A stretch of DNA of 64,000 nt, taken from NCBI RefSeq assembly GCF_000282615.1, contig NZ_AKIY01000322.1, forward strand, positions 1 to 64,000. Reading direction: 5' to 3'. Of this stretch, positions 19,460 through 58,567 are shown piece after piece; position 1 is the first letter of the stretch; every line of letters starts with the position of its first letter. This DNA is from Bradyrhizobium sp. YR681. GTDB lineage: Bacteria > Pseudomonadota > Alphaproteobacteria > Rhizobiales > Xanthobacteraceae. The translations under genes were made by a program, and so were the position numbers. The notes beneath the pieces were generated by a model that saw nothing but the letters and a program-made list of their open reading frames with translations, had not been told where the DNA came from and searched no databases.

Positions 19460-19617
19460 GGCCGGCCCTTTCCAATTGACTCGCAGGGAGCGGACCCGCA
19501 TGTTTTGCTGCCGGTTGGGAATTGGAATTGCGTCACGATGGGTTGTCTGGTCTTTGCACGAGTAGTGCCGGTCGTTGCGACGCGTGATCGTGCCGGGCGA
19601 GGTGCAGCGGGCATCGT

Positions 19618-19639
19618 ATCTCAACCGTTCGGTTGAGAT
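19618..19639. promoter_or_regulatory. 22-bp perfect palindrome over the nucleotidyltransferase start
   Basis: Arms ATCTCAACCG (19618-19627) and CGGTTGAGAT (19630-19639) are separated by TT. The right arm contains the GGTTGAG ribosome-site-like sequence and the first bases of ATG 19638. It could be a repressor operator, or an mRNA hairpin hiding the start. The core TCAACCGTTCGGTTGA recurs at 23170-23185. Confidence 0.55.
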
Positions 19640-21233
19640 GACGGGCACAGCAAGGCTTCCGACCGTGCTCCGTGGGCGTTTTCTGACGCTGTTCCGGGCC
19701 GCACTCGGACAGGGGCAAACCGCCGTCGACGCCTATCGGGACTGGCGCGCCTCCGAGCCGCTGGACGCTGCCGACGAGATCGTCTACCGGACCATGCCGC
19801 TGCTCGTGGCCACCATCGACAGGGCCGGCATCGTGGATGCCGACACCAGGCGGATGCGCGGCGTCGTCAAGCATGTCTGGCTCTCGAACGCGACGCGGGT
19901 CCGCGATCTCGTCGAGGCCAACAGGGCGCTCGCAAGCGCCGGCATCGCCGCGCTGCTGATCAAGGGCGGTGCGCTGTTCGCGCGCGACGAGAGCTACATG
20001 GCCAAGCGCATGACGGGAGACTACGATCTCCTGGTTCGCCGCGCCGAGGCGCCCCGCGCCATCGATGTGCTGCGGCAGGCCTCGTTCCGCAGCCACGGCA
20101 TGAAGGTCGAGCTGTTCTCGGAGTCCGATTACGACCGCGACATCCATGCTGTCGCGATGTCGCGCGCCGGCTTCGGCCGGGCCATCGACCTGCACTGGCG
20201 CGCGATCTTCTGGCTCGACGACGCTGGCTTCACCGAGGAGCTGTTCAGGACCGCCGAGCGGGCGAAGCTGCTGACCCATGAGGTGCTGATCCCGGGCCTT
20301 GCCGAGCAGCTGGCGATCGCGGCGATGCGGCCGGAGCCGGCGGACCAGAAGGAGATGGTTTTTCGCGCGCTCGAGGTCGTTCATCTGCTGGAAAATTACG
20401 GCGACAAGGTCGATTGGGAGCGCTTCCGCTCGATCGTGACAGGCTACAATGGCGGCCTGTTCGCGGCGCAATTGCTCGACGTCGTCGCACGCGAGATGCC
20501 GGCGCTCGTGCCTGACGGTCTGGTCGAGCAGCTGTTGCGCGACGGGCCGCCCGGAACATCGATCGAGCTCGCGATGCGCGCGGTACCTTGCGCACAGCGC
20601 ACGCCTTGGCAGCATTTTTGGGTCGCCTTCTTCGGCTCGCTGCGCGCGCAGTTCAAGGGGCCGTTTCGCGTGCTGGACTGGCTGAGGCTGCCCGGCGCCG
20701 CCATCGCCGCGCTCGACGCCAGCGCCGTGCATTTTCCTCTTCGTCACGACGCGATCCTCAAACGGGTCTGGCAGCAGGCCGCCGCTGCGACGCATCCGCT
20801 GCGAGGACAGGACGTCTGGTTCGGGCAGGGCTTTTCCATTCCGGAGGACGAGGGACGGTGGACCGATCACCAGTTCGCCGTCGTCGAAGTGCCGGTCGGC
20901 GGACAGATGCAGGCGTCAGCCGCCGTCGAGCTCGCGGTGATCCCGTTCCTGCCGCCGGGCACGGAGAGCTTTCGCTTCGCGGCCTATGCCGGCGCCGGTG
21001 ATATCTTGCAGTTGATTGCGGGACGTAACGATCCGATGCCGTTCAAGATCGCGCTGAACGCGAAGATCGTCGGCTCGGGCACGCGAAAAATCGTCGTCGC
21101 GTTGCGCATGCTGGATACCGGCCGTCCGATGGACCTCGGTCATTCGATCGACCACCGTCTGCTTGGGCTGTTCGTGAAGTCGGTATCGGTCAACGGCGTG
21201 CCGGTGTTCACTCCGGCGGTTGCCGCGCCTTGA
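19638..21233 (+). CDS. Nucleotidyltransferase family protein (PF14907-like)
   Basis: The protein is 531 residues. IKGGALFARDESYMAKRMTGDYDLLVRR at about 110-135 is the active-site region of the NTP_transf_5 family, with DYDLLV giving the metal-binding aspartates. The C-terminal half has no family I recognise. Members sit beside PqqD-like and HprK-like genes in lasso-peptide and exopolysaccharide clusters, where a role in modifying a peptide or glycan is suspected. The start at 19638 is chosen over 19575 for its GGTTGAG site. The 3' end overlaps the convergent GT2 gene by 26 bases. Confidence 0.75.
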   Translation: MTGTARLPTVLRGRFLTLFRAALGQGQTAVDAYRDWRASEPLDAADEIVYRTMPLLVATIDRAGIVDADTRRMRGVVKHVWLSNATRVRDLVEANRALASAGIAALLIKGGALFARDESYMAKRMTGDYDLLVRRAEAPRAIDVLRQASFRSHGMKVELFSESDYDRDIHAVAMSRAGFGRAIDLHWRAIFWLDDAGFTEELFRTAERAKLLTHEVLIPGLAEQLAIAAMRPEPADQKEMVFRALEVVHLLENYGDKVDWERFRSIVTGYNGGLFAAQLLDVVAREMPALVPDGLVEQLLRDGPPGTSIELAMRAVPCAQRTPWQHFWVAFFGSLRAQFKGPFRVLDWLRLPGAAIAALDASAVHFPLRHDAILKRVWQQAAAATHPLRGQDVWFGQGFSIPEDEGRWTDHQFAVVEVPVGGQMQASAAVELAVIPFLPPGTESFRFAAYAGAGDILQLIAGRNDPMPFKIALNAKIVGSGTRKIVVALRMLDTGRPMDLGHSIDHRLLGLFVKSVSVNGVPVFTPAVAAP

Positions 21234-21888
21234 TCGCCTTGCGCAGCGCCATCAGCGTCTGCAGATTTTGCGCGTCGGTATGGGTGCGGCCGCCATTGCG
21301 AAGGTGCAGCCGGCGCCGCACGACGATGTCGTCGACATGCGCGATCTTGAGGCCATTCTGCTTGGCGCCGCCGAGCCAGGCGATGAAGAAGGTCGCGGGC
21401 AGCGTCTCGTCGAACGGGCCGTTCCGGTCGAGCGCGGTACGGCGGACCAGCATGCATTGCTTCAGCTCGCCCGGCATGATCTCGATATCGGGCGTGAGGC
21501 GCGCGCGATGGTCTTCCGGCACGTCGGGGCTGACGAATTGCTGCACCTTGCCGAACGCGGCCTCGACCCTGCCGTCGCGTTCGAGCAGCGCCAATTGCAT
21601 CTCCAGTTTGCGTGGAGTCCACAGATCGTCCGCATCGCAGAAGCCGATCAGCTCGCCGCGCGCCATTGCGAGGCCCTTGTTGACGGCGACGGCCTGACCG
21701 CTGTTCGCCTGGGTGAGAACAATGACGCGGTCGCCGAAGCGATCGAGGATGCCGCGCGTGCCGTCGGTAGATCCGTCGTCGATGACGATGACCTCGTCGG
21801 GCGGGACCGTCTGGCCGAGCACGCTCTCGATCGCCTCGGCGATATAGGCCTCGGCGTTGTAGGCGGCGATGACCACGGAGACGCGCAT
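21208..21888 (-). CDS. Glycosyltransferase family 2
   Basis: The 226-residue GT-A enzyme has VSVVIAAYNAEAYIAEAIESVL at the N-terminus, VIVIDDGSTDGT, and GFCDADDLW as the DxD metal site. It lacks a C-terminal membrane part, so it is a soluble or peripheral cytoplasmic transferase. It is last in an operon after the PqqD-like and HprK-like genes, 6 bases after the kinase stop. Donor and acceptor are unknown; context suggests it acts in the same pathway as those two. Confidence 0.85.
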   Translation of the reverse strand: MRVSVVIAAYNAEAYIAEAIESVLGQTVPPDEVIVIDDGSTDGTRGILDRFGDRVIVLTQANSGQAVAVNKGLAMARGELIGFCDADDLWTPRKLEMQLALLERDGRVEAAFGKVQQFVSPDVPEDHRARLTPDIEIMPGELKQCMLVRRTALDRNGPFDETLPATFFIAWLGGAKQNGLKIAHVDDIVVRRRLHLRNGGRTHTDAQNLQTLMALRKAIKARQPPE

Positions 21889-21894
21889 GCGGCC

Positions 21895-22884
21895 TCAGAG
21901 CCGTTCGAGCTGGCGGGCGAAAGCGGAAGGTATCTCCATCGGCGTGGTGCCGGTGTCGGCGAAGAACACCGGCGCGAGGCCCGCGATCCTCGCCACCTTG
22001 GCGGCGATCTCGTTCGGCCATCCCGGCAGCTCGTAAGCGGTGGTCGGCAGCAGCGCGCGAAACGCGTCGGACTGTCTGGCCGGCGTAAATTCGGGCGTTG
22101 CGGCGCCGCGCCGGCGGGGAATGAACGTCGCGCGCAGCTTGCCGCCGCCGATGCGGTTGCCGAGATCGGCGAGGCTCAGTTCGTGGCGCGGCTCGCCGTT
22201 GAAGTCGGAGACCGGCGTGGTGTCGCCGATGAAATCTTGAAAGGTGTCGACGAGGGCAGGGCGCAGCCGCGCCGAGCAGAACAGCGGCTCGATCCGGCCG
22301 GTCTCGCTGTCGACTGCGACGAAATCGTCGCCCGCATAGAGCCAGCCGGCTTTCGCGCAGGCCAGCGCCGCCGTGGTCTTGCCGCTGTGGCCTTCGCCCG
22401 CGAGCAGCGCGAAGCCCGATGTGCCGCCGACGGCCGCGGCATGGACGGCGCACCAGGGCGTCTCGTGCATCATGGCTTGGATCAGCGAGATCGCCGGGCG
22501 GCTGCGGATCCAGGGCGGCGCGTCGCCCTTAGGCAACCAGGCGATGCCGCGCTTCGCCGTGAGGTCGACCGCGTACAGCACGGGAATGACGGCCGGCTGC
22601 CATACCGAATAGATGCCGTCCTCGATCAGGAGGCGCGGCTTCTCGGCGGCCTCCGGCACCAGCGCTGAGAGATCGTGGTCGGCGGCGGTGATGAAGCGCA
22701 GGTCGAGATCGATCGCCTGGGGCGTGCTCTGGATGTAGGCCGGCAGGAACATGCCGGCCAGAGCCTGCGAGGCAAATCCGAGACGTAAGCCGAACGGGCC
22801 GCAGCGTGCGCGGGCCTCGATTGGCTCCGATGCTTTGGCGAAGACCGCCGCGATCTCCTGCCGGATGAGATCGCTGGCTCTCAT
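21895..22884 (-). CDS. HprK-related kinase-like protein
   Basis: The 329-residue protein has a C-terminal HPr kinase/phosphorylase-like fold: VHAAAVG at about 147-153, a P-loop GEGHSGKTT at 163-171 and YAGDDFVAVD after it. The first 130 residues are a separate, unrecognised domain. True HprK acts on HPr in sugar transport. The PqqD-linked subgroup instead accompanies peptide or glycan clusters and may phosphorylate another substrate. The start overlaps the PqqD-like stop by ATGA. No HPr gene is nearby. Confidence 0.8.
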   Translation of the reverse strand: MRASDLIRQEIAAVFAKASEPIEARARCGPFGLRLGFASQALAGMFLPAYIQSTPQAIDLDLRFITAADHDLSALVPEAAEKPRLLIEDGIYSVWQPAVIPVLYAVDLTAKRGIAWLPKGDAPPWIRSRPAISLIQAMMHETPWCAVHAAAVGGTSGFALLAGEGHSGKTTAALACAKAGWLYAGDDFVAVDSETGRIEPLFCSARLRPALVDTFQDFIGDTTPVSDFNGEPRHELSLADLGNRIGGGKLRATFIPRRRGAATPEFTPARQSDAFRALLPTTAYELPGWPNEIAAKVARIAGLAPVFFADTGTTPMEIPSAFARQLERL

Positions 22885-23318
22885 TTCGATTCTTGGGTCT
22901 CGCGCAGCGGCCAGCCTTCCTCGCCGGCGTCATGCACGGGATCCATCAGCAGCAGCTCCCGCAGATTGTCGAAGCGCTGGAATTCCGGGGCGACGAAGGC
23001 ACCCGTCAGCACTGGTGCCCAGTTCGCGATGGCGGCCTCATCGCGCGCATCGGCCGCGCCTTCGGCGATGAGGCCTTCGGCCAGCATGCCGTCGACGAAG
23101 GCGTGCACTTGCTGTGTGATGAACGGCACATCGCCGCCGGTCGCGGCAGCGATGGCGCTGCCGATCTCCTCAACCGTTCGGTTGACCTTGAGGCCGAGCC
23201 AGATCTGCGCGGCGCTGCCCTCGAGATTGTAGTAGACGCCGTTCTGATAGTTGGCGAGCACCACTTCGCTATCGAATTGCTGGCTGATCAGCAGCGGCAC
23301 TGACGTCGTGAGGGCCAT
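22881..23318 (-). CDS. PqqD-like protein
   Basis: The 145-residue protein's first 95 residues match the PqqD fold: LANYQNGVYYNLEGSAAQIWLGLKVNRTVEEI, a small winged-helix that in other systems binds leader peptides for RiPP enzymes. The C-terminal 50 residues (VAPEFQRFDNLRELLLMDPVHDAGEEGWP) are an extra tail of the type seen in HprK-linked members and may themselves be recognised by partners. ATG 23318 is preferred over 23354. It is first in the PqqD-HprK-GT2 operon. No radical SAM enzyme or precursor peptide is visible. Confidence 0.8.
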   Translation of the reverse strand: MALTTSVPLLISQQFDSEVVLANYQNGVYYNLEGSAAQIWLGLKVNRTVEEIGSAIAAATGGDVPFITQQVHAFVDGMLAEGLIAEGAADARDEAAIANWAPVLTGAFVAPEFQRFDNLRELLLMDPVHDAGEEGWPLRETQESK

Positions 23319-23411
23319 GACTTGCTCGGTACTCACATCAATTCCAGACAACACACGCTAGCATGGGCACGCGGCTGCGAGAACCGCGCCGCTTGCGCCA
23401 ATTGCAGGCAG

Positions 23412-23657
23412 CTAGCCCGTGCCGAACGCCTTGAAGGTGATGATGGTGAGGGTGTCCTGGATGCCGGGCAGAACCTGCACCTTCTCGTTGATGAAGTGGC
23501 CGATGTCGGTGTCGTTGTCGACGTAGAACTTTACCAGGAGGTCGTAATGGCCGGCCGTGGAATAGATCTCGGAGGCGATCTCGGCTTCGGCGAGCGCATT
23601 GGCGACCGTGTAGGACTGGCCGAGCTTGCATTTGATCTGGACGAAAAAGGGAACCAT
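23412..23657 (-). CDS. Stand-alone Lrp/AsnC ligand-binding (RAM) domain protein
   Basis: The 81-residue protein is MVPFFVQIKCKLGQSYTVAN and onward, with the GHYDLLVKFYVDNDTDIGHF and GIQDTLTIITFKAF segments of the RAM effector domain. The DNA-binding half of Lrp/AsnC is absent. Such stand-alone domains form dimers or octamers and may bind amino acids or partner regulators. It lies 89 bases downstream of the hybrid kinase gene on the same strand, so the two may be co-transcribed. Confidence 0.85.
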   Translation of the reverse strand: MVPFFVQIKCKLGQSYTVANALAEAEIASEIYSTAGHYDLLVKFYVDNDTDIGHFINEKVQVLPGIQDTLTIITFKAFGTG

Positions 23658-23746: not shown

Positions 23747-25726
23747 TTAGGACGGCAGGGGCGCGCCGGCAAACGCCTCCCGCAGCCGCCGGGCGAGCTC
23801 GGCATTGCGGTAGGGCTTGGTCAGAACGATCGCTTGCGCGTGGGCGCGGCCCTGCTCGACCAGGGTCTCCAGGGCATAGCCGGACGAGAACACGACCGGC
23901 AGGCCGGGACGGATGTGCCGGGCCTGGTCGGCGAGGTCCCAGCCGCTGATCCCGCCGGGCATCACGATGTCGGTGAACAACAGGTCGATGGCCGGGTTGG
24001 TGCGCAGCAGCTGCAAGGCCTCCTTGCCGTTGACGGCCGCGACCACGCGATACCCCAGCGCCTCCACACGCAGCGTGACGGAGGAGCGGACGAACGGATC
24101 GTCCTCGGCGACCAAAATCGTCTCATGGCCCCGGGGCGCCGCCTCCTCGCGCACCCCGATGTCGGCGAGCGACTGCTCGCCGCCGGCGTGCGGCAGGTAG
24201 ATGCGGACCGTCGTGCCGAGGCCCGGTTCGCTGTAGATCGAGACATGGCCGCCTGATTGCTTGGCGAAGCCATAGACCATGCTCAGCCCCAGGCCGGACC
24301 CCTTGCCGACCTCCTTGGTGGTGAAGAACGGCTCGAAGGCGTGCTCGATGACGTCAGGCGTCATGCCTTCGCCGTCGTCGGTGACCGAGATCAGCGCGTA
24401 GCTGCCGGACTGCACCTCCGGATGCTGGACGCGATAATGCTCGTCGATTGCGGTGAGCTCGGTGCTCAGCGTGAGATGCCCGCCTGACGGCATGGCGTCC
24501 TGCGCGTTGAGCGCGAGATTGAGCACGGCGGATTCGAGCTGGGCGAGGTCGGCGAAGGCGAGGATGGAGCCGGGGCCGAATGCCGTCTTGATCTCGATGT
24601 TCTCGCGCAAGGTGCGCTTGAGCAGCTTGTGCATGGAGGTCAGGAGCTCGCGGCACTCGATCGCCCGCGGTTGCAGCAATTGGCGGCGGCTGAACGCCAG
24701 CAGCCGCTGGGTCAGCTCGGCGCCGCGCTCGCCGGACTGGCAGATGTCGTCGGCGAAGCGCCTGAGGTCCGGACGCGCCTTGAGCTGGTCGCTGAGGAAT
24801 TCCGCGTTGCCGATGATGACGGTGAGCAGATTGTTGAAGTCGTGGGCGATGCCGCCGGAGAGCTGGCCGACCGTCTCCATCTTCTGCGCCTGCTGAAGCT
24901 GCTGCTCGGTCAGCTTGCGCGTGGTCAGGTCGTGAACGATGCCGACATAGATCAGCTCGCCGTCCTGCCACGCCTGGCCGACCGACAGGTCCATCGGAAA
25001 GTGTGAACCGTCCTTGCGCAGGCCGGCGGCTTCCCCGGTTGCGATGCGCCGCGCATGACCGGTCGATGAGGGCCTTTCCTCGTTGGACATCAGCATGCCG
25101 ATGTCGCGATGCATGACCTCGTCGGCGCGATAACCGAACAGCCGTTCGCAGGCGGGGTTGAACAGGAGAATGCGGGCTTGCGCGTCGAACAGGATGACGC
25201 CGTCCACCGCGGTCTCGACCACGGCGGTGAGGCGCGTCATGCTCTCGCGTAGCGCGCGCTGGGCGTCACGGACCTGGTCGAGGAGCTGGGCCGCATCCCG
25301 GTTCTTGGTCTCCTCCTCCTGGAGCGCGGCCTGGACCTGCCGGAGCTCGAACGGCGAGGGGATGGTCAGGATCTTCGGCAGGAGCGGCCAGAGTGCTCCC
25401 GCGGTGAAGACCGACGCCACGGCGGTGAGCGCCTTGACGATGCCTTCGATGCCGTAGACCGGTACCCACAGCGTGTAGATCGACAGCACATGCGTGAGGC
25501 CGCAAGCCATGATGAAGACGGCGAACGCCCAGAACACCCAGCCGAATTTGAGGTCGCGCCGTTTGGTGACGAGGATCGCGAGCGCGAACGGGATCGAGAA
25601 ATACGCAAGCGCAATAAGGGCGTCCGAGACGACGTGCAGCCAGATCAGCTCGGGTTCCCAGAGCAGGCAGATCCCGTGCGGCGAGAACATCGAGGAATCG
25701 AGGAGACGTTCGAAGTAGGCCCACAT
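23747..25726 (-). CDS. Hybrid histidine kinase with ethylene-receptor-type sensor domain
   Basis: The protein is 659 residues. Residues 25-120 form three membrane helices that align without gaps (constant offset of 10) to the ethylene-binding domain of Arabidopsis ETR1: Asp35, Tyr42, Ile45, Pro46, Ile72, Cys75 and His79 match D25, Y32, I35, P36, I62, C65 and H69. Cys75 and His79 are the Cu(I) ligands. A coiled coil follows, then a PAS domain (about 165-275), a HisKA domain with His295 in GGIAHDFNNLL, an HATPase (ALNAQDAM, GSGLGLSMVYGF) and a receiver with Asp586 and Lys637. ATG 25726 has a GGGTGG site. Ethylene sensing is inferred. Confidence 0.88.
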   Translation of the reverse strand: MWAYFERLLDSSMFSPHGICLLWEPELIWLHVVSDALIALAYFSIPFALAILVTKRRDLKFGWVFWAFAVFIMACGLTHVLSIYTLWVPVYGIEGIVKALTAVASVFTAGALWPLLPKILTIPSPFELRQVQAALQEEETKNRDAAQLLDQVRDAQRALRESMTRLTAVVETAVDGVILFDAQARILLFNPACERLFGYRADEVMHRDIGMLMSNEERPSSTGHARRIATGEAAGLRKDGSHFPMDLSVGQAWQDGELIYVGIVHDLTTRKLTEQQLQQAQKMETVGQLSGGIAHDFNNLLTVIIGNAEFLSDQLKARPDLRRFADDICQSGERGAELTQRLLAFSRRQLLQPRAIECRELLTSMHKLLKRTLRENIEIKTAFGPGSILAFADLAQLESAVLNLALNAQDAMPSGGHLTLSTELTAIDEHYRVQHPEVQSGSYALISVTDDGEGMTPDVIEHAFEPFFTTKEVGKGSGLGLSMVYGFAKQSGGHVSIYSEPGLGTTVRIYLPHAGGEQSLADIGVREEAAPRGHETILVAEDDPFVRSSVTLRVEALGYRVVAAVNGKEALQLLRTNPAIDLLFTDIVMPGGISGWDLADQARHIRPGLPVVFSSGYALETLVEQGRAHAQAIVLTKPYRNAELARRLREAFAGAPLPS

Positions 25727-25768: not shown

Positions 25769-25998
25769 CATTGGCGTCGCTGGACGGTTCCAGCGTCAAC
25801 GTCTCACTCATCGAGCTGGACGCCAAGGGCCAAGGGGGTTTCAATGTTTTATTTTCGCGCTTTTGCACGATGCTGGGTCGACAGGGCCGCGCCGGGGCTC
25901 GACCTGCTGATTCGTCGGCCGCTCCGGCTTGCTGACGTTCCATGGTCGCGCTAGGACAAGGTCATGGTTGTGTCCGTATCAAGCGAGTGTGCCCTGCG

Positions 25999-26799
25999 AT
26001 GACGACGCCCGTGGCGCTCACCATTGCCGGCTCCGATTCGAGCGGCGGCGCCGGTATCCAGGCTGACCTGAAGACCTTCGCCGCGCTCGGTGTCTATGGC
26101 GCTTCCGCCATCACGGCGCTGACGGCGCAGAACACGCGCGGCGTCACCGGCATTCACGCGGTGCCGGCCGACTTCGTCACGGCGCAGATCGATGCGGTGT
26201 TCTCCGATCTCGAGGTCGGTGCGGTGAAGATCGGCATGGTGGCGCAGGCCGCCAGCATCGATGTGATCGCGGCCGCGCTGTCGCGCTGGAAGCCAGGCCA
26301 TATCGTGCTCGATCCCGTGATGGTCGCAACCTCCGGCGATCGCCTGCTGGCGCCTGAAGCCGTCGAGGCGCTACGGACAAGACTGATGCCGCTGGCCTCG
26401 GTGATCACGCCCAATTTGCCGGAGGCCGCAGCGCTGCTCGACGAGCCTGTTGCGGTCAGCGAGGCCGGGATCGAAAGCCAGGGGCGCCGCCTGATGGCGC
26501 TCGGCTGCCGCGCGGTCCTGATCAAGGGCGGCCACGGCGAGGGCGCCGAGAGCGTCGATTACCTCGTCACGCCCGCAACCACGATCGCGCTCGCCGCGCC
26601 CCGCGTCGCCACCAGGAATACCCATGGCACCGGCTGCTCACTGTCCTCGGCCGTCGCGGCGGGGCTGGCCAAAGGCGAGGACCTGGAGCAGGCGGCGCGG
26701 AGCGCCAAGGCCTGGATCAGCGCGGCGATCGCGGCCGCCGACGGTTTCAGCGTCGGCCACGGCCACGGGCCGGTCCATCATTTCCACAAGTTTTACTGA
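25999..26799 (+). CDS. thiD: Hydroxymethylpyrimidine/phosphomethylpyrimidine kinase
   Basis: The 266-residue ribokinase-family enzyme starts [23 protein letters not shown], the ThiD hallmark. [14 protein letters not shown] and the C-terminal anion hole and catalytic Asp region [20 protein letters not shown] complete the fold. It phosphorylates HMP twice to HMP-PP for thiamine synthesis. ATG 25999 gives the normal N-terminus. The gene stands alone between the kinase and plcP-like genes. Confidence 0.93.
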
Positions 26800-31642: not shown

Positions 31643-33430
31643 TCAGTGCATGAAGCCGCCGCGGCGATTGCCGCCACCATTGTTCATGCTCGGGGCCTGG
31701 TTCATCGACTGGCGGAAGTTGTTGCCGCCGTTGTTGACGATGCGGTTGGTCGTGTTGAACTGCGGGCGGTTGTTCTGGACCTGCACCTTGTTCACGGGGG
31801 TGTTGAGCTTGACGCCGTTGTTGACGCGGATCGGTGTGTTCTGCGTCTGAACGACCGGCTTCGTCTCGACAGTCGTACCGCCCTTGCCGACATTCACCGG
31901 CATGCTCACGATCTTGCCGGGCGAGCCGTTGGTCGTGCCGGTATTGGTGCTGCCGCCATTCTGCGTATTGGTCACGGGCAGGGTCACGATCTTGCCGGGG
32001 CCGGCATTGTTGGTCGTCGTGTTGGTCGGCGCGGGCAGGGTGACGATCTTGCCCGGGGTCTGCAGCGGCGTGCCGTTCGTCTGGTTGTTGCCCGCCGGCA
32101 GGTTGACGATCTGGCCGCCATTGCCGGGCTTGCCGATGCTGTTGCCGCCCTCCGGCTTCTGCACGACCGGCAGATTGCCGTTGAACTGACCGCCGCCGTG
32201 ACCCTGCTGCACCAGCGGCATGTATTTGGGCTGGCCGAGATTGCCGATCTTGAAGGTCGGCGCAATGTTCTGCGGCGCCAGGAATTTGGTCGCCTGCATC
32301 AGGGGGATCTGCTTCGGCTGGGCCTCGAGCTTCAGCGCGACCTGCGCATAGGGAGTGTTGCCGTAGCTGTCGTAGAAGCTCTTGTAGCCGAGCGGCGAAT
32401 TCGCCAGCACCGCCTTGTGCCAGGCCTGCGTCAGCAGCAGGTTGTTGAGCAGCCAGCGGACGTGGTCGCACAGCGGGTCGTGCGGGTACATCTGGATGAA
32501 CTCCTGATAGTACTCCGGCCGCGCCTCGGACACGACGTAGTCATAGGCCTGGCGCGTCGAACGGCTCGGCAGGTTGGAGGCCATCTGCACGACCGGCGCG
32601 TTCACCGGCGCGCGGCTCGCGGCGACAGCGGTGTCGCCGAAGAAGGTGAAGTCGCTCGTCAGCGACGAGCTCTCCCACGGGATCTGCGCGCCGCTGGTGG
32701 TCTGGTTCACCTGGAGGCGCACGCGCTTGAACAGCTGCTCGATCGGCACGTTGGGCTCGTGCGCGATGTTGAGGAAGGCCTGCGTGTAGGGGCTGTGGCC
32801 GCCGGTACCGTCCTGCGCTTCGGCGCCCGGTGCGGTCGAATAGCCGACGATCGAGCCGTTCGGCGCATCAACGATGGCAAGGCCCCGGCCGGCATCGTTC
32901 ACGTTCGGAAACGGGTTGTTGCGGCAGGCATCGAGGATGACGATGCGCATGCGGCTCGGAATCGCCTCCAGCGTCGACATCACGTCGACGAGGCGCACCG
33001 AATTGTTGACGAGCTCCGTCGGGCTCGACACCTTGGCATCGACGGGGACGAGATAGTTCTCGCCGGCGAGCTGCACGCCGTGGCCGGCGTAGTAGACCAT
33101 CGCCACCGTGTTCGGGCCGCGCGCAGACACTTTTGCGGAAAAGTCCTGCACCACGCGTAGCATGTCGTTCTGGGTCAGGTCGGTCGCGGCGACCACCTCG
33201 AAGCCGGCGGAGTTCAGGAACTGCGCCATCGACTGCGCGTCATTGTCGGGGTTCTGGAGCTGCGGCGCGTTCTGGTAGTTGGAGTTGCCGATGACCAGCG
33301 CCACGCGCTGCTCCGGGCCTTGCAGCACGGTCGGGGCGGGCGGTTCTTGCGCGGAAACCGGGCCGCAGGCGAAGCCGAACAGGCTCCCCACGAGGCTGGC
33401 CGTCATCAGGAAAGACTTTAGGCGGAACAT
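31643..33430 (-). CDS. Secreted caspase-family (C14) protein with repetitive tail
   Basis: The protein is 595 residues, with a signal peptide (cleavage near VSA27-Q28). The caspase-like domain (about 40-270) starts RVALVIGNSNY and has the catalytic pair His117 (YYAGHG) and Cys169 (LDACRNNPF). A middle region (about 290-420) has no known fold. Residues about 430-595 are Asn/Gly/Thr-rich with repeated PGKIVTLP-like motifs. Prokaryotic metacaspases of this layout occur in several Bradyrhizobium relatives; substrates are unknown. GAGGAG precedes ATG 33430. Confidence 0.9.
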   Translation of the reverse strand: MFRLKSFLMTASLVGSLFGFACGPVSAQEPPAPTVLQGPEQRVALVIGNSNYQNAPQLQNPDNDAQSMAQFLNSAGFEVVAATDLTQNDMLRVVQDFSAKVSARGPNTVAMVYYAGHGVQLAGENYLVPVDAKVSSPTELVNNSVRLVDVMSTLEAIPSRMRIVILDACRNNPFPNVNDAGRGLAIVDAPNGSIVGYSTAPGAEAQDGTGGHSPYTQAFLNIAHEPNVPIEQLFKRVRLQVNQTTSGAQIPWESSSLTSDFTFFGDTAVAASRAPVNAPVVQMASNLPSRSTRQAYDYVVSEARPEYYQEFIQMYPHDPLCDHVRWLLNNLLLTQAWHKAVLANSPLGYKSFYDSYGNTPYAQVALKLEAQPKQIPLMQATKFLAPQNIAPTFKIGNLGQPKYMPLVQQGHGGGQFNGNLPVVQKPEGGNSIGKPGNGGQIVNLPAGNNQTNGTPLQTPGKIVTLPAPTNTTTNNAGPGKIVTLPVTNTQNGGSTNTGTTNGSPGKIVSMPVNVGKGGTTVETKPVVQTQNTPIRVNNGVKLNTPVNKVQVQNNRPQFNTTNRIVNNGGNNFRQSMNQAPSMNNGGGNRRGGFMH

Positions 33431-48424: not shown

Positions 48425-48799
48425 ATGACGCCTGAACTGCAACGGATGGACTGGATGCCTTCGCCCCCGCTTGCACCGATCGACAGCCCGCTCGACCTCG
48501 ATCACCTCTCCCGCATGACGCTCGGCGATACCGAGCTGGAACAGGAAGTGCTTGCGATGTTCGCCGAGCAGGCGGTCCGCCTGCTCGCGGCGATGACGGC
48601 GCTGCCGGCCGAGACCGGCGCGCTCGCGCACAAGCTCAAGGGCTCGGCGCGCGGGATCGGCGCCTTTGCGGTGGCCGACGCCGCCGCCAGCCTGGAGACT
48701 GCGATCCAGACCGGCCACAACCGGCCCCACGCCTTCGCCGCGCTGAAGGAGGCGGTGGCCGAGGTCCGTGCCGCCATCGAGACGATCCTGAAACATTAG
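48425..48799 (+). CDS. Histidine phosphotransfer (HPt) protein
   Basis: The 124-residue protein has its phosphorylatable His69 in AHKLKGSARGIGA, the HPt motif, within a four-helix domain (about 30-124). It should relay phosphate between a hybrid kinase receiver and a response regulator. The start at 48425 removes an unlikely N-terminal extension (open to 48359). It is divergent from the giant polar protein and shares the CtrA-like control region. Confidence 0.85.
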   Translation: MTPELQRMDWMPSPPLAPIDSPLDLDHLSRMTLGDTELEQEVLAMFAEQAVRLLAAMTALPAETGALAHKLKGSARGIGAFAVADAAASLETAIQTGHNRPHAFAALKEAVAEVRAAIETILKH

Positions 48800-53627: not shown

Positions 53628-55883
53628 CTAGAATTTGTAGGTCACACTGCCGAGCACCGTGCGACCGGTGCCGAGGAAGCAGTCGCCGCGCGCCAGGCAG
53701 GTCGTGAGATGGCGCTTGTCGAAGAGATTGCTGGCGTTGACCTGAAGTCGCCAGGGGCCGTTGTCGTAACGGACCATGGCGTCGAACAAGGTGTAGTCGG
53801 GCGTGCGGATGGTGTCGGTGCCATCCCAGGATTGGCCGACGTAGCGTACGCCGCCGCCGAGCGTGACGCCGGGCAGGCCGAGCAAAGTGAGGCGGTACTT
53901 CGCCCAGAGCGAGGCCTGGTGATCCGGCACGGTCTCGACATGCTTGCCGGCATTGTCGCCGCTCTCGACGCGGGCGTCGAGATAGGCGTAGGCGGCGATC
54001 AGATCGAGATCCGGCGTGACGCGCGTGAGAACCTCGAGCTCGGCGCCGCGGATGCGGACCTTGCCGGTCTGGATCGAGAGCAGCGGATTGTCGGGATCGC
54101 TGGCGAGCCTGTTCCGCTCGGTGGTGTCGAAGATCGCGCCGTTGACGGCATTGCCGGGCGCCGGATTGTACTTGAAGCCGAGCTCCACCATCTCGCCGCG
54201 CTGTGGCGTGCAGGCTCCCGTGGCGCAGACACCGCTGCCGAACACCGGATTGAACGACTGTGCATAGGTGACGTAGGGCGTGACGCCGAACGGCAACTCG
54301 TACATCAGCGCGGCGCGGCCCGTGGTCGCCTGGTAATGCTCGACCGGCGAGCCCTGCGTGTCGCTGGTGACGTAGTCGTGGCGCAGGCCGAGCACGGCGA
54401 GCCACGGCCCGAGCCGCAACTGGTCCTGAGCGTAGAGGCCGAACTGGCTCTGCCGTAGATCGGGCTCCGCCGACATGACCGGCGGCGTGACGCCGGTGTA
54501 GACCGGCGCGTAGAGATCGAACGGCGTCGCGTCGTAGCCCCCGCCGGACGAAGCGCGTTCCTTGTAGCCGCGGTAGTCGACGCCGAACAACGTCTTGTGC
54601 AGGAGCGCGCCGGTTGCGAACTTCAGCTCGGCATTGCTGTCCGAGGTGAAATTATCTTTCACGCTGTCCCGGGCCCAGATGTAGCGCGCCACCGTGCGAC
54701 GCTCGGCATCCAGGAACGGATTGTCCGGTGTGGAATACACGTCCGGATAAAGGCCGTGATAGATGCCCTCGACATGCGTATAGCGCAGGTTCTGCCTGAC
54801 GGTCAGGCCATCGTTGAAGCGGTGCTCGAACAGGCTGGAGACGGCGCCGGTCTCGGTCTGGTAGCGATCCCAGCCTGGCTCGCTGGTGAAGCGGTTGACC
54901 GGAATGAGGCCGTTGGGACCGGGATAGAGCGTCCCCTCATGCGGCAGGAACGCCGTGGAGGAACCCGTATTGTCCTTTTGATAGGTGCCGAGCACGGTCC
55001 AGCTCGTGTTGTTGGTCGGGCGCCAGGTCAGCGACGGCGCCAGCAGGATGCGGTCGTCCTTGACGTAGTCGGTCTGCATGTTGCTGTCGCGGAACACGCC
55101 GACGAAGCGATAAAGCCACTCGCCGTCCTTGGTCAGCTTTCCCGTGGAATCGAGCTGCACCTGCTTGCGGTTGAAGCTGCCATATTGCACGCCGATCTCG
55201 TTGGCGCTTTCCGCCTGCGGGCGCTTCGAGATCAGGTTCAAGAGACCTGCCGTCGAGGTGTCGCCGTAGAGCACCGAGGAGGGACCGCGCAGGACCTCGA
55301 TGCGCTCCAGCGTGTAGGGCTCCGGCCGCCATTCATTGAAATTCCAGGTGTTCACCATCCGCGTGCCGTCGAGATAGATGTTCGGGTCCTGGCCCCGGAT
55401 GCGCGGATAATCGCCGCGCGAATCCGCGCCGTAGGCGTCGGCGAACACGCCCGGCACATAGCGCAGCGCTTCCTGCACGGTGGTCGCGCCCTGGTCGGTG
55501 ACCCGATCGGCGGTCACCACGCTGATCGAATGCGGGGTCTCGCGCAGGGGCGTGTCGGTCTTGGTGCCGGTGCCACTGCGGGTTGCGACATAGCCCCGGA
55601 CCGGACCCGTCGCCGTCTCCGCTTCCGTGCCCGCACTGGCCGCCGGTGCATCCGCGCTCGATGGGACGCGCGCGGCCTGGCGACGTCTTGCGGCTTGCGT
55701 GGCTTGACGGGAGCGAACCGGACGGGTGCGCGCCGCCGGCCTTGACGACGATTGCTCGACCACGACGGGAGCCAGTTCCTGCGCTGATGATTGCGCTTCG
55801 GCCGGTGCAGCGTCCATCAGGCCGGCTAGCAGCGGCAGGGCGCCGCCGATCAATTTCGCCGTCGTCCTCAAAAAGTTTGTCAT
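53628..55883 (-). CDS. TonB-dependent siderophore receptor
   Basis: The 751-residue protein has a signal peptide (about 1-30), then an N-terminal low-complexity basic stretch. The plug domain (about 110-230: ETPHSISVVTADRVTDQGATTVQEALRYVPGV, RIRGQDPNIYLDGTRM) and a 22-strand barrel follow, ending in VTYKF with a C-terminal Phe. It resembles ferrichrome/ferrioxamine-type receptors. It is the last gene downstream of a two-component system and a small secreted protein on one strand. No Fur or Irr box was identified. Confidence 0.92.
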   Translation of the reverse strand: MTNFLRTTAKLIGGALPLLAGLMDAAPAEAQSSAQELAPVVVEQSSSRPAARTRPVRSRQATQAARRRQAARVPSSADAPAASAGTEAETATGPVRGYVATRSGTGTKTDTPLRETPHSISVVTADRVTDQGATTVQEALRYVPGVFADAYGADSRGDYPRIRGQDPNIYLDGTRMVNTWNFNEWRPEPYTLERIEVLRGPSSVLYGDTSTAGLLNLISKRPQAESANEIGVQYGSFNRKQVQLDSTGKLTKDGEWLYRFVGVFRDSNMQTDYVKDDRILLAPSLTWRPTNNTSWTVLGTYQKDNTGSSTAFLPHEGTLYPGPNGLIPVNRFTSEPGWDRYQTETGAVSSLFEHRFNDGLTVRQNLRYTHVEGIYHGLYPDVYSTPDNPFLDAERRTVARYIWARDSVKDNFTSDSNAELKFATGALLHKTLFGVDYRGYKERASSGGGYDATPFDLYAPVYTGVTPPVMSAEPDLRQSQFGLYAQDQLRLGPWLAVLGLRHDYVTSDTQGSPVEHYQATTGRAALMYELPFGVTPYVTYAQSFNPVFGSGVCATGACTPQRGEMVELGFKYNPAPGNAVNGAIFDTTERNRLASDPDNPLLSIQTGKVRIRGAELEVLTRVTPDLDLIAAYAYLDARVESGDNAGKHVETVPDHQASLWAKYRLTLLGLPGVTLGGGVRYVGQSWDGTDTIRTPDYTLFDAMVRYDNGPWRLQVNASNLFDKRHLTTCLARGDCFLGTGRTVLGSVTYKF

Positions 55884-56075
55884 TTGCGCCCCCCGTCATT
55901 TGCGACCGGGGACGACTAACAAGTGTGATCTGGCGCTTGAAGTGCAGGAGGGACGCAGCGTCTCTCAATCATCAGATTTGGAATTAGTATATCTATAGAA
56001 TGAGCGCGCGCCGGTTGATATCGGCGCGCGGATGCATGAAAGGGAGAATGAGGTGGTGCGCCTCGGCGCCTGCGG

Positions 56076-56345
56076 TCAGTGCGCCTCGCTCTCCGTCGTC
56101 GCGCTGGCGAGCCGCTTGACGCGTGGCGACAGCACCGAGACTTGCGCGGGCGAGGCGGGCATGCCGGCGACGATCATCGCAGGCGCAGTCGACTGCTCCT
56201 CGACGCCGGCGCCGCCGAGCACCTGGACCTGCGTCGCCGAGATCGGAAACGAATTCACTTCGTAAGAGGGCAACTCGCCGGCAAACGCACCGGCCGAGCT
56301 CGCAATCATGGCGCCGGCAACGGCAATCATTGAAAGAACGCGCAT
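56076..56345 (-). CDS. Small secreted protein (89 aa)
   Basis: The protein has a signal peptide (MRVLSMIAVAGAMIASSAGAFA) followed by a Val/Ser/Pro-rich mature part (LPSYEVNSFPISATQVQVLG). A GGAG ribosome site precedes ATG 56345; the open frame to 56516 lacks one. It lies between the sensor kinase gene and the TonB receptor gene on the same strand. The function is unknown. Confidence 0.65.
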   Translation of the reverse strand: MRVLSMIAVAGAMIASSAGAFAGELPSYEVNSFPISATQVQVLGGAGVEEQSTAPAMIVAGMPASPAQVSVLSPRVKRLASATTESEAH

Positions 56346-56528
56346 TGGAAAATCTCCGTGAAGGATGGCAATCGGAGGTTTGGTCGCGGCAATGCCGCAA
56401 CAGGTTCGCTCGTGCACGAACATTCGACGGCCGCGTTCGGACATATTTGATTGCGTGATGCGACGGGACGAAACAAACAGGACGTTTTTCGCGCCGATGT
56501 TTCCGGACGGTTTCACGGAAGGGGCACG

Positions 56529-57890
56529 TCAGTGCGGTTGCAGATCGCGCTGCGGAGATCTGGTCGTCGCGGCCTCGGGAAAGCGCAGGCTCATCGTCGT
56601 GCCGCGGCCGGGTGCAGAGGAGATGACGAGCTCGCCGCCATGGGCGGCCATGATCTCGCGGACGATCGACAGGCCGAGGCCGGCGCCGTCGCCCGCGCAG
56701 TTGCCGGTCTGAAACGGCTCGAGCAGCCGGTGCTCCGCGTCATCGGGCAGGCCCGCGCCGTCGTCGTCGACCGAGATGCTGCCGCGGCCGAGCGTGGCGA
56801 CGATGCGCCGGGCGCCATGCGCGTGGATGAGCGCGTTGCCGACGAGATTGGCAAGCGCGCTGCGAACGGCGGCGTCCACGCCTTGCACCAGGAGCGGCCC
56901 TTCCTCGGCGCGTTCGAGCGCAAGCTCGATGCCGGCATCCAGCGCCGAGGGGCCGAAATCGGCGAGCACGTCCAGTGTTAGCTCGGCGAGATCGATCGGC
57001 CGCTTCTCGATCGCGTGGTTTTGCAGCCGCGCCAGGTCGAGCATGGCCGAGACCAGCGAGGTGAGGCGGCGGACGTCGCGCACGAGCTCGACCTTCAGGG
57101 CCGGGTCGGGCACGTCCTCGATCTTCGCACGCAAGAGCGTCAACGGTGTGCGGAGCTGATGGGCGGCATTGCCGAGGAAACGGCGCTGCATCCTGATATA
57201 GGCGTCGATCTCGCCGAAGGCGCGGTTGAGCGCCGCGACCAGCGGCTTCAGCTCGGTGGGAACTTCGGACAGCGATATCAAGCCTTGCGGCGCCGATGGG
57301 TCGATCGCGAGCGCGCGGCGCGCCACCCGTTCGATCCCGCGCGAGACGAACCGTGCGGCGAGCGCCGAGCCGATCGCGACGGTCGCCGCGAATGCCAGCG
57401 CCAGCAGCGCGATCGAGAAAATGCTGCGGACGAGGAAGTTCCTCGCAATCCGGCCAAATCTGACCTGAGGCTCGCCGATCATCGTCGTGAGCTGCAATGA
57501 ACCTCGTTGCATGACGGCGAGACAGAAGGTGCTCTTCTGGTCGAGTGTGCTGAAGACGGACGAGCCGACGGGCCCGTGATAGGGAAATGCGAATGGAAGG
57601 GCCGGCCGGCGTTCGCTGCCGTACTCGCTGATCATGCTGCCCGCGGACACGACGTACCACAGATTGGGACTGTCCGCCTTGAGCTCCTCGAGCCCGGGAG
57701 TCTGACGCACCGTCAGGTTCTGCCCTTCGATCACCGTGGCGCGGTCGAGAATCGCAGCCACGACCCGGCACGCCCTGAACTCGCGTTCCTCCATCGGGTA
57801 TCGCGAGACGAAGATGCCGAGCATGATCAGGAAGATCATCGTCGCGGCGATGCCGAGCGACAGCGCGAACGTTCGGGCGATGGACTTCAT
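56529..57890 (-). CDS. Two-component sensor histidine kinase
   Basis: The protein is 453 residues. Membrane helices at about 8-29 and 153-178 flank a periplasmic domain of roughly 120 residues. A HAMP-like linker leads to HisKA with His244 in NAAHQLRTPLTLL and an HATPase with NLVGNALIHA, DDDGAGLP and GAGLGLSIVREIM. Its start overlaps the response regulator stop by ATGA. The signal is unknown; location suggests control of the TonB receptor. Confidence 0.9.
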   Translation of the reverse strand: MKSIARTFALSLGIAATMIFLIMLGIFVSRYPMEEREFRACRVVAAILDRATVIEGQNLTVRQTPGLEELKADSPNLWYVVSAGSMISEYGSERRPALPFAFPYHGPVGSSVFSTLDQKSTFCLAVMQRGSLQLTTMIGEPQVRFGRIARNFLVRSIFSIALLALAFAATVAIGSALAARFVSRGIERVARRALAIDPSAPQGLISLSEVPTELKPLVAALNRAFGEIDAYIRMQRRFLGNAAHQLRTPLTLLRAKIEDVPDPALKVELVRDVRRLTSLVSAMLDLARLQNHAIEKRPIDLAELTLDVLADFGPSALDAGIELALERAEEGPLLVQGVDAAVRSALANLVGNALIHAHGARRIVATLGRGSISVDDDGAGLPDDAEHRLLEPFQTGNCAGDGAGLGLSIVREIMAAHGGELVISSAPGRGTTMSLRFPEAATTRSPQRDLQPH

Positions 57891-58567
57891 CGCGGTGTTG
57901 CCAGCCGCAGGATGTAGCCGATACCGCGCATGCTGCGGATCTCGACGTCGCCGCCGAGCTCGGCCAGTTTCTTCCGCAGGCGCGAGACCTGCGCTTCGAG
58001 CGTGTTGGATTCGATCTCGTCGTCGAAGCCGTAGATCTCCTCGATCAGGGCGGTGCGGGTGATGACGCGGTCGCGCCGCATCAGGAGCGCTCCGAGGATC
58101 AGTGCCTCGCGCCGCCGCAGCAGGATTTTGGTGTCGGCCACCACCGCCTCGTTGCTTCCGAGATGCAGCTCGACATTGCCGAGCGACAGCACCGAGGGCG
58201 CGAGCAGCCGGGGCCGCCGCAGCACCGCGCGCACACGCGCAATCAATTCCTGCGGCTCGAACGGCTTGCCGAGATAATCGTCGGCGCCGCTGTTGAGGCC
58301 GTCGACGACATCCTCCTTGGCGTCCTTGGACGTCAGCATGATGATCGCGGGGCGGTCCGGCGACCGGCTCAGCGCCGTGACCACCTGGAGTGCATCTCCG
58401 TCGGGCAGCATCCGATCGACGATCGCAAGATCATATTTGAAATTGTCCAGCGCATGACGGGCATCGGCAATCGAGCCGACGAGGTCGACGACGCCGTGCA
58501 GCTGCCCGAGCAGGCGGCTGACATAAGCGCCGATCTGCGGTTCGTCTTCGATCACGAGGGAGCGCAC
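57887..58567 (-). CDS. OmpR-family response regulator
   Basis: The 226-residue protein has a receiver with Asp51 (AIVDRMLPDGDAL) and Lys101 (GKPFEP), and a C-terminal winged helix (SNTLEAQVSRLRKKL, MRGIGYILR). It starts with GTG at 58567, preceded by AAGGA. It is the upstream partner of the sensor kinase. Targets are unknown. Confidence 0.92.
   Translation of the reverse strand: MRSLVIEDEPQIGAYVSRLLGQLHGVVDLVGSIADARHALDNFKYDLAIVDRMLPDGDALQVVTALSRSPDRPAIIMLTSKDAKEDVVDGLNSGADDYLGKPFEPQELIARVRAVLRRPRLLAPSVLSLGNVELHLGSNEAVVADTKILLRRREALILGALLMRRDRVITRTALIEEIYGFDDEIESNTLEAQVSRLRKKLAELGGDVEIRSMRGIGYILRLATPR

Follow-up and report, generated by a model that had tools for sequence, protein, structure and literature searches.

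Does a soil bacterium that is kin to the soybean symbionts carry a working receptor for ethylene and, if so, what would it use it for? The question is raised by a gene in the 64,000-nucleotide stretch of Bradyrhizobium sp. YR681 DNA analysed here (hereafter the window), whose product joins an N-terminal domain resembling the ethylene sensor of the plant receptor ETR1 to a hybrid histidine kinase (Table 1). Our analysis of its residues, its selective constraint and its distribution across the genus leads us to conclude that the YR681 protein is, as judged from sequence, very probably a working ethylene receptor, and sheds light on how such a gene is kept and lost among close relatives.

The bounds of the reading frame given in the original prediction proved exact, with an ATG at 25726, and the strand, which that prediction had not given, is minus. 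This start is favoured over an in-frame ATG upstream at 25771 because Met1 is kept in all 47 aligned syntenic copies, that is, 46 loci plus the window aligned by codon, the broken copy of genome G094 having been left out of the syntenic 48. The PAS, HisKA, HATPase and receiver domains that were predicted to follow the sensor are all matched by Pfam in that order, and a genome-wide profile search returned a PF25487 span identical to the Pfam span, residues 26-121. Since PF25487 matches 0 of 14 control genomes, the sensor match is not a chance one. In a Kyte-Doolittle scan the hydrophobic stretches within residues 25-122 form three helix regions, the third interrupted, and the protein thus has the three-helix N-terminal ETR1_N membrane domain that marks ethylene receptors of the ETR1/AzoEtr1 type. 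Receptors of that type also have a histidine-kinase output module in which the catalytic residues are intact; here H295, N407, D450, D586 and K637, together with D542 and D543 of the receiver, are kept in 47/47 syntenic copies, and all ligand and catalytic residues checked are invariant save receiver position 614, which is T in 40 copies and S in 7. An AlphaFold2 monomer model of low confidence (mean pLDDT 63, pTM 0.40) places helices at residues 25-55, 62-91 and 93-112, followed by a long helix at 125-159, and is too poor for the geometry of the copper site. A sequence search of the PDB found no solved structure of this sensor domain, and Rfam gave no match over the window at gathering thresholds. 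The domain is the single ETR1_N sensor in the whole genome (7.83 Mb in 351 contigs, with a completeness of 100% by tool estimate).

Table 1. The receptor gene, its domains, its flanking genes and a candidate partner, in window coordinates.
Feature	Position	Strand	Basis
Hybrid histidine kinase gene, EBD-PAS-HisKA-HATPase-REC, 659 aa	23747..25726	minus	ORF and Pfam
Ethylene-binding domain (EBD) ETR1_N (PF25487), residues 26-121	25364..25651	minus	Pfam 6e-39, 132.7 bits (cut-off 27)
PAS, PF00989 residues 165-218 (PAS_9: 175-268)	25073..25234	minus	Pfam
HisKA, residues 287-349, phospho-acceptor H295	24680..24868	minus	Pfam; H295 in 47/47
HATPase_c, residues 393-513; N407, D450 and G-box present	24188..24550	minus	Pfam and residue check
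Response_reg, residues 537-648; phospho-acceptor D586, acid pair D542/D543, K637	23783..24118	minus	Pfam
Stand-alone Lrp/AsnC ligand-binding (RAM) protein, one flank	23412..23657	minus	PF01037 2.3e-12
Divergent thiD, other flank; possible upstream start 25942	25999..26799	plus	PF08543 4.3e-97 on frame 25942-26799
Stand-alone Hpt protein, candidate phosphorelay partner (guess), 23 kb away	48446..48799	plus	PF01627 3.7e-9

Whether the domain could bind ethylene depends on its copper site. All seven ETR1 binding residues that the original prediction had listed are indeed present, with Cys75 and His79 placed as in ETR1; window residues D35, Y42, I45, P46, I72, C75 and H79 stand opposite what we take to be D25, Y32, I35, P36, I62, C65 and H69 of ETR1. 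These seven, which include the Cys and His copper ligands and are a further hallmark of such receptors, are invariant in 47/47 syntenic copies, as is Lys98, and by homology C75 and H79 would be the Cu(I) ligands. The gapless alignment to ETR1 that had been claimed over 120 residues does not survive, BLASTP giving 39/115 identities and 9 gap positions. From window residue 27 to residue 88 the two sequences keep the constant offset of 10, which fails on both sides of that stretch, where gaps of six residues N-terminal of residue 27 (before helix 1) and of three residues between helices 2 and 3 intervene. As a result of the 3-residue gap before helix 3, K91 of ETR1 pairs with K98 at an offset of 7, a pairing that is also given for the Azospirillum receptor AzoEtr1 in the accessible text of its report (PMC11819568). 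Before helix 1, residues H17, G18, C20 and W23, outside ETR1's seven, are invariant in 16/16 aligned bacterial sensors and are perhaps a bacterial periplasmic feature.

The sensor is common in the genus. Among the best 80 of 95 confirmed loci, the closest named sequences are from Bradyrhizobium, headed at 99% by Bradyrhizobium sp. cir1, and an ETR1_N domain occurs in 101/146 Bradyrhizobium genomes and in 20/289 genomes across the class. Sorted by neighbourhood and sequence, the copies in the 146 genomes fall into four sets: a window-like hybrid kinase in the syntenic position beside thiD (48 genomes, one copy broken), the window-type hybrid at other sites (4 genomes, bringing the window type to 52), a second canonical type (30 genomes) and an Arg-type described below (27 genomes). 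Two members of the second canonical type (G023 and G125) were placed there by sensor matches alone, with their sensor residues confirmed; single copies in G015, G053 and G077 lie outside all four sets, and fragments or small copies occur in a few genomes (G070, G085 and G131). Genome G131, the only one to carry both the window type and the second canonical type, has five ETR1_N matches, a frame-broken copy among them (L071-L073, L079). A contig titled 'Frankia sp. RB7' (JAUEPE010000009.1, L197) bears a 91% Bradyrhizobium-type sensor, and its title looks wrong.

Selection on the protein is concentrated where ethylene would bind. With our own Nei-Gojobori script, taking medians over pairs of the 47 copies, the sensor core shows a dN/dS of 0.099, the lowest of six stretches, the others being the linker (0.171), PAS (0.303), kinase (0.146), second linker (0.340) and receiver (0.189); among the four domains, constraint is weakest on PAS. 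For 20 copies of the second canonical type the median is likewise lower in the sensor (0.186) than in the rest of the protein (0.343). So strongly kept a sensor must be in use. That the sensor is important follows from purifying selection; the identity of its ligand as ethylene goes beyond that evidence.

A sister branch of the genus provides a natural contrast. Thirty Arg-type EBD-like histidine kinases in 27/146 genomes (L056-L070, L278-L291 and L302) have Arg at the position of His79 in 29 copies and Cys in the remaining one, so that the copper His is found in 0/30; Pro46 of helix 1 is likewise kept in 0/30, Cys75 in 26/30 and Asp35 in 27/30. In the 12 of these 30 copies for which dN/dS was determined, the median is 0.357 for the sensor against 0.144 for the rest, and in these copies the sensor is relaxed and the kinase still constrained. 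This loss of the site in a relative makes it more credible that the window gene encodes a true ethylene receptor. It is conceivable, although we would not quite favour it, that one scaffold has here taken on two jobs, with a constrained, nodulation-independent copper receptor cassette on one side and, on the other, an Arg branch without ethylene binding that answers to another signal or is locked. The window-type hybrid (scored in 52 genomes) and the Arg branch (27) never coincide in the 146 genomes as scored, which may reflect nothing more than clade membership. An obligatory heteromer of canonical and Arg-type receptors was considered and set aside, since the second canonical type occurs in only 10/27 Arg-type genomes and the window type in none. 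In one Arg-branch genome, G085, there is also a short piece of a canonical-looking sensor (L292) that breaks off after helix 1.

The surroundings of the gene reveal how it is carried. In 48/48 genomes the syntenic kinase and thiD point away from each other, and in 46/48 the RAM gene lies on the kinase's other side, the fetched stretches of G007 and G047 showing none. We also fetched the site from 40 genomes that lack the kinase there, 29 from the same clade and 11 others, out of the 98 without a syntenic copy, some of which carry another EBD type. In 40/40 of them the RAM gene lies next to thiD in divergent orientation, with 98 to 456 bases between the two matches, and in two (G093 and G018) remnants of the receiver or kinase persist between them. 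The same 40/40 count, with RAM beside thiD and no kinase, led us to reject an obligate operon of the kinase with its downstream AsnC/RAM gene. In a site tree built from thiD, lpxH and RAM (89 rows; computed quickly in IQ-TREE, with SH-aLRT as the sole measure of support), the syntenic kinase is confined to one supported clade, where it is present in 48/77 rows. The best tree requires 14 presence/absence changes, of which starred branches impose 9; shuffling gives a mean of 29.5. Given the empty sites with adjacent flanks, the remnants and the low number of changes on the tree, the receptor gene is a chromosomal cassette of one clade, optional and tied to a fixed site, that was largely inherited and lost at least twice. 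Absent at this site in 98/146 genomes, it is dispensable for the genus.

Further genes of the window deserve mention in their own right. Beside the kinase, positions 19575-23354 encode a nucleotidyltransferase-like protein (PF14907), a glycosyltransferase, a protein with no Pfam match and a PqqD-like protein; this might be a modified-peptide cluster, and relatives of the last two proteins occur in 6/48 syntenic stretches (the window included) and in 3/40 kinase-less ones. At 31643-33430 lies a caspase-domain protein of 595 aa (Peptidase_C14, 6.4e-49) whose start looks, by eye, like a signal peptide, and at 53628-58567 a TonB-dependent receptor has a separate two-component system close by, made up of a histidine kinase and a Trans_reg_C-domain regulator.

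The sequence, the constraint on the sensor and the proven relative AzoEtr1 all lend good support to the claim that a hybrid kinase here carries an ethylene-binding sensor. As a whole, we consider it highly probable that the protein belongs to the ETR1/AzoEtr1 kind of membrane ethylene receptor, has a phosphorelay output, is carried as an optional cassette and serves a role other than nodulation. By homology, Cys75 and His79 in the three N-terminal transmembrane helices would coordinate Cu(I), Asp35 would position the histidine, and ethylene would bind at the copper. We hypothesize that binding alters the packing of the helices, which would be relayed through the linker and PAS domain to change the autophosphorylation of His295. 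From His295 the phosphate would pass to Asp586 of the protein's own receiver, then to a free Hpt protein and finally to some response regulator. No response-regulator gene adjoins the window gene, unlike in Azospirillum; the genome holds six Hpt matches, among them the stand-alone protein in the window. By analogy with AzoEtr1, the output would likely be control of lifestyle, for instance of surface attachment or carbon storage and of the carbon/nitrogen balance, rather than of nodulation.

Two other readings concern what the protein senses. We regard it as unlikely that the ETR1 fold and copper site have been kept in this lineage to sense a ligand other than ethylene, or copper itself. The scaffold can drift, since a branch of the genus lost the His ligand, and the H17, G18, C20 and W23 residues, outside the ETR1 set and invariant in the 16-member alignment, could serve another role. 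Nevertheless, AzoEtr1, which is 54.7% identical in the sensor, binds ethylene according to the accessible text of its report (PMC11819568), and all seven ETR1 ethylene-binding residues are kept here, as in AzoEtr1, within the most constrained part of the protein. Quite improbable, in our judgement, is a membrane domain acting mainly as anchor and dimeriser, with PAS as the real input. A PAS domain does follow the sensor, and PAS domains are common sensors; however, PAS is the fastest-evolving domain and the sensor core the slowest, the opposite of what this reading predicts, and the PAS of the window protein is not matched anywhere in the second canonical type of the genus.

The remaining alternative concerns purpose. 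The original prediction held that such a receptor could sense ethylene, which controls nodulation, and this leads to a reading of the gene as a symbiosis receptor tuning nodulation to plant ethylene. In its favour, ethylene is described, in the abstracted literature, as a negative regulator of nodulation (PMC13291814), and NodA is present in 30/48 genomes with the syntenic receptor. Yet NodA is about equally common without it (54/98; Fisher p=0.48 over 146 Bradyrhizobium genomes); counted the other way, the syntenic receptor occurs in 30/84 NodA genomes and in 18/62 NodA-less ones, NodA presence being scored as 84/146 after nine genomes with weak matches only (E 1e-6 to 1e-3) were dropped from 93. 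No other receptor set shows an association with NodA in these 146 genomes either, and nine tree-independent pairs show no NodA trend, although informative pairs are too few for significance. The co-occurrence with nod genes that would mark a symbiosis regulator is therefore not seen. Moreover, the YR681 genome itself has no NodA match, no NifH over the cut-off and no NodC over the cut-off (best 41 bits against 550, in a search that also gives sub-threshold matches in 13/14 control genomes), and the gene sits between the RAM gene and thiD, a gene of vitamin synthesis. ACC deaminase is present in YR681 (588 bits) and says little, because 127/146 genomes have it over the cut-off. The proposal that the receptor senses ethylene for nodulation is thus left without support, and we hold it to be very unlikely. 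The absence of any tie to nodulation here cautions against reading such receptors as symbiosis genes.

The preferred reading, a copper-dependent ethylene receptor with a role outside nodulation, can be set against the systems already known. Like the window protein, Arabidopsis ETR1 has its EBD at the N-terminus and a kinase and receiver at the C-terminus, but it carries a GAF domain where the window protein has PAS and signals via CTR1 and EIN2 in the ER. The two sensors are 34% identical over 115 columns with 9 gap positions. The label 'plant-type', which the original prediction gave to the sensor, misleads: such domains are noted, in the accessible text of one study, in many proteobacteria and cyanobacteria (PMC7700396), and the nearest characterised relative that we found is itself proteobacterial, AzoEtr1 of Azospirillum brasilense. 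A recent transfer from a plant is not thought likely, the nearest sequences in the prokaryote collections searched being from Bradyrhizobium and other bacteria.

No gap is needed to align the sensor with that of AzoEtr1 from strain Sp7, and D35, C75, H79 and K98 carry the same numbers in both (54.7% identity over 128/128 residues); the order EBD-PAS-HK is shared, and the full-length alignment gives 35% identity over 524 columns. We recognised AzoEtr1 in the Sp7 record (L156) by its 525 aa and its neighbouring genes, release factor 3 and aspartate-semialdehyde dehydrogenase upstream and an overlapping response-regulator gene downstream, which agrees with the accessible text of the published account (PMC11819568). 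According to that text, the AzoEtr1(1-130) fragment shows saturable ethylene binding, the D35A and C75A variants do not rescue biofilm formation (with the authors' caveat of a two-plasmid complementation), and AzoEtr1 is the first ethylene receptor to be described as functional in a proteobacterium, in 2025 (PMC11819568). In contrast to the window protein with its fused receiver, AzoEtr1 has none and relies on the separate, overlapping response-regulator gene, so the output may differ between the two. The adjoining response-regulator gene that marks the AzoEtr1 subtype is not found beside the window gene, whose neighbours encode the RAM protein and ThiD, and AzoEtr1 lies on a 1.75-Mb plasmid. 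SynEtr1 of Synechocystis PCC 6803, a bacterial ethylene receptor whose histidine kinase activity leads to a response regulator, differs, by description alone, in being bifunctional for ethylene and light (PMC11819568, accessible text). The second canonical EBD kinase type of Bradyrhizobium has key residues identical in the aligned copies and an EBD ~73-82% identical to the window's; it differs in having no match to the window's PAS, in its other neighbourhoods and in being mostly EBD-kinase-receiver, with some members shorter.

Among the literature matches listed, by their titles and abstract openings, no Bradyrhizobium ethylene receptor is described; one may be in print in the subscription papers, which lay outside this scope. 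A constrained relative of the window protein is found in about one third of the 146 Bradyrhizobium genomes, present or absent at one fixed site, and this offers ready-made comparisons of close relatives for understanding what use soil bacteria make of ethylene. The receptor is a well-preserved case of a known kind, already proven in Azospirillum, and across Bradyrhizobium its occurrence does not go along with the ability to nodulate.
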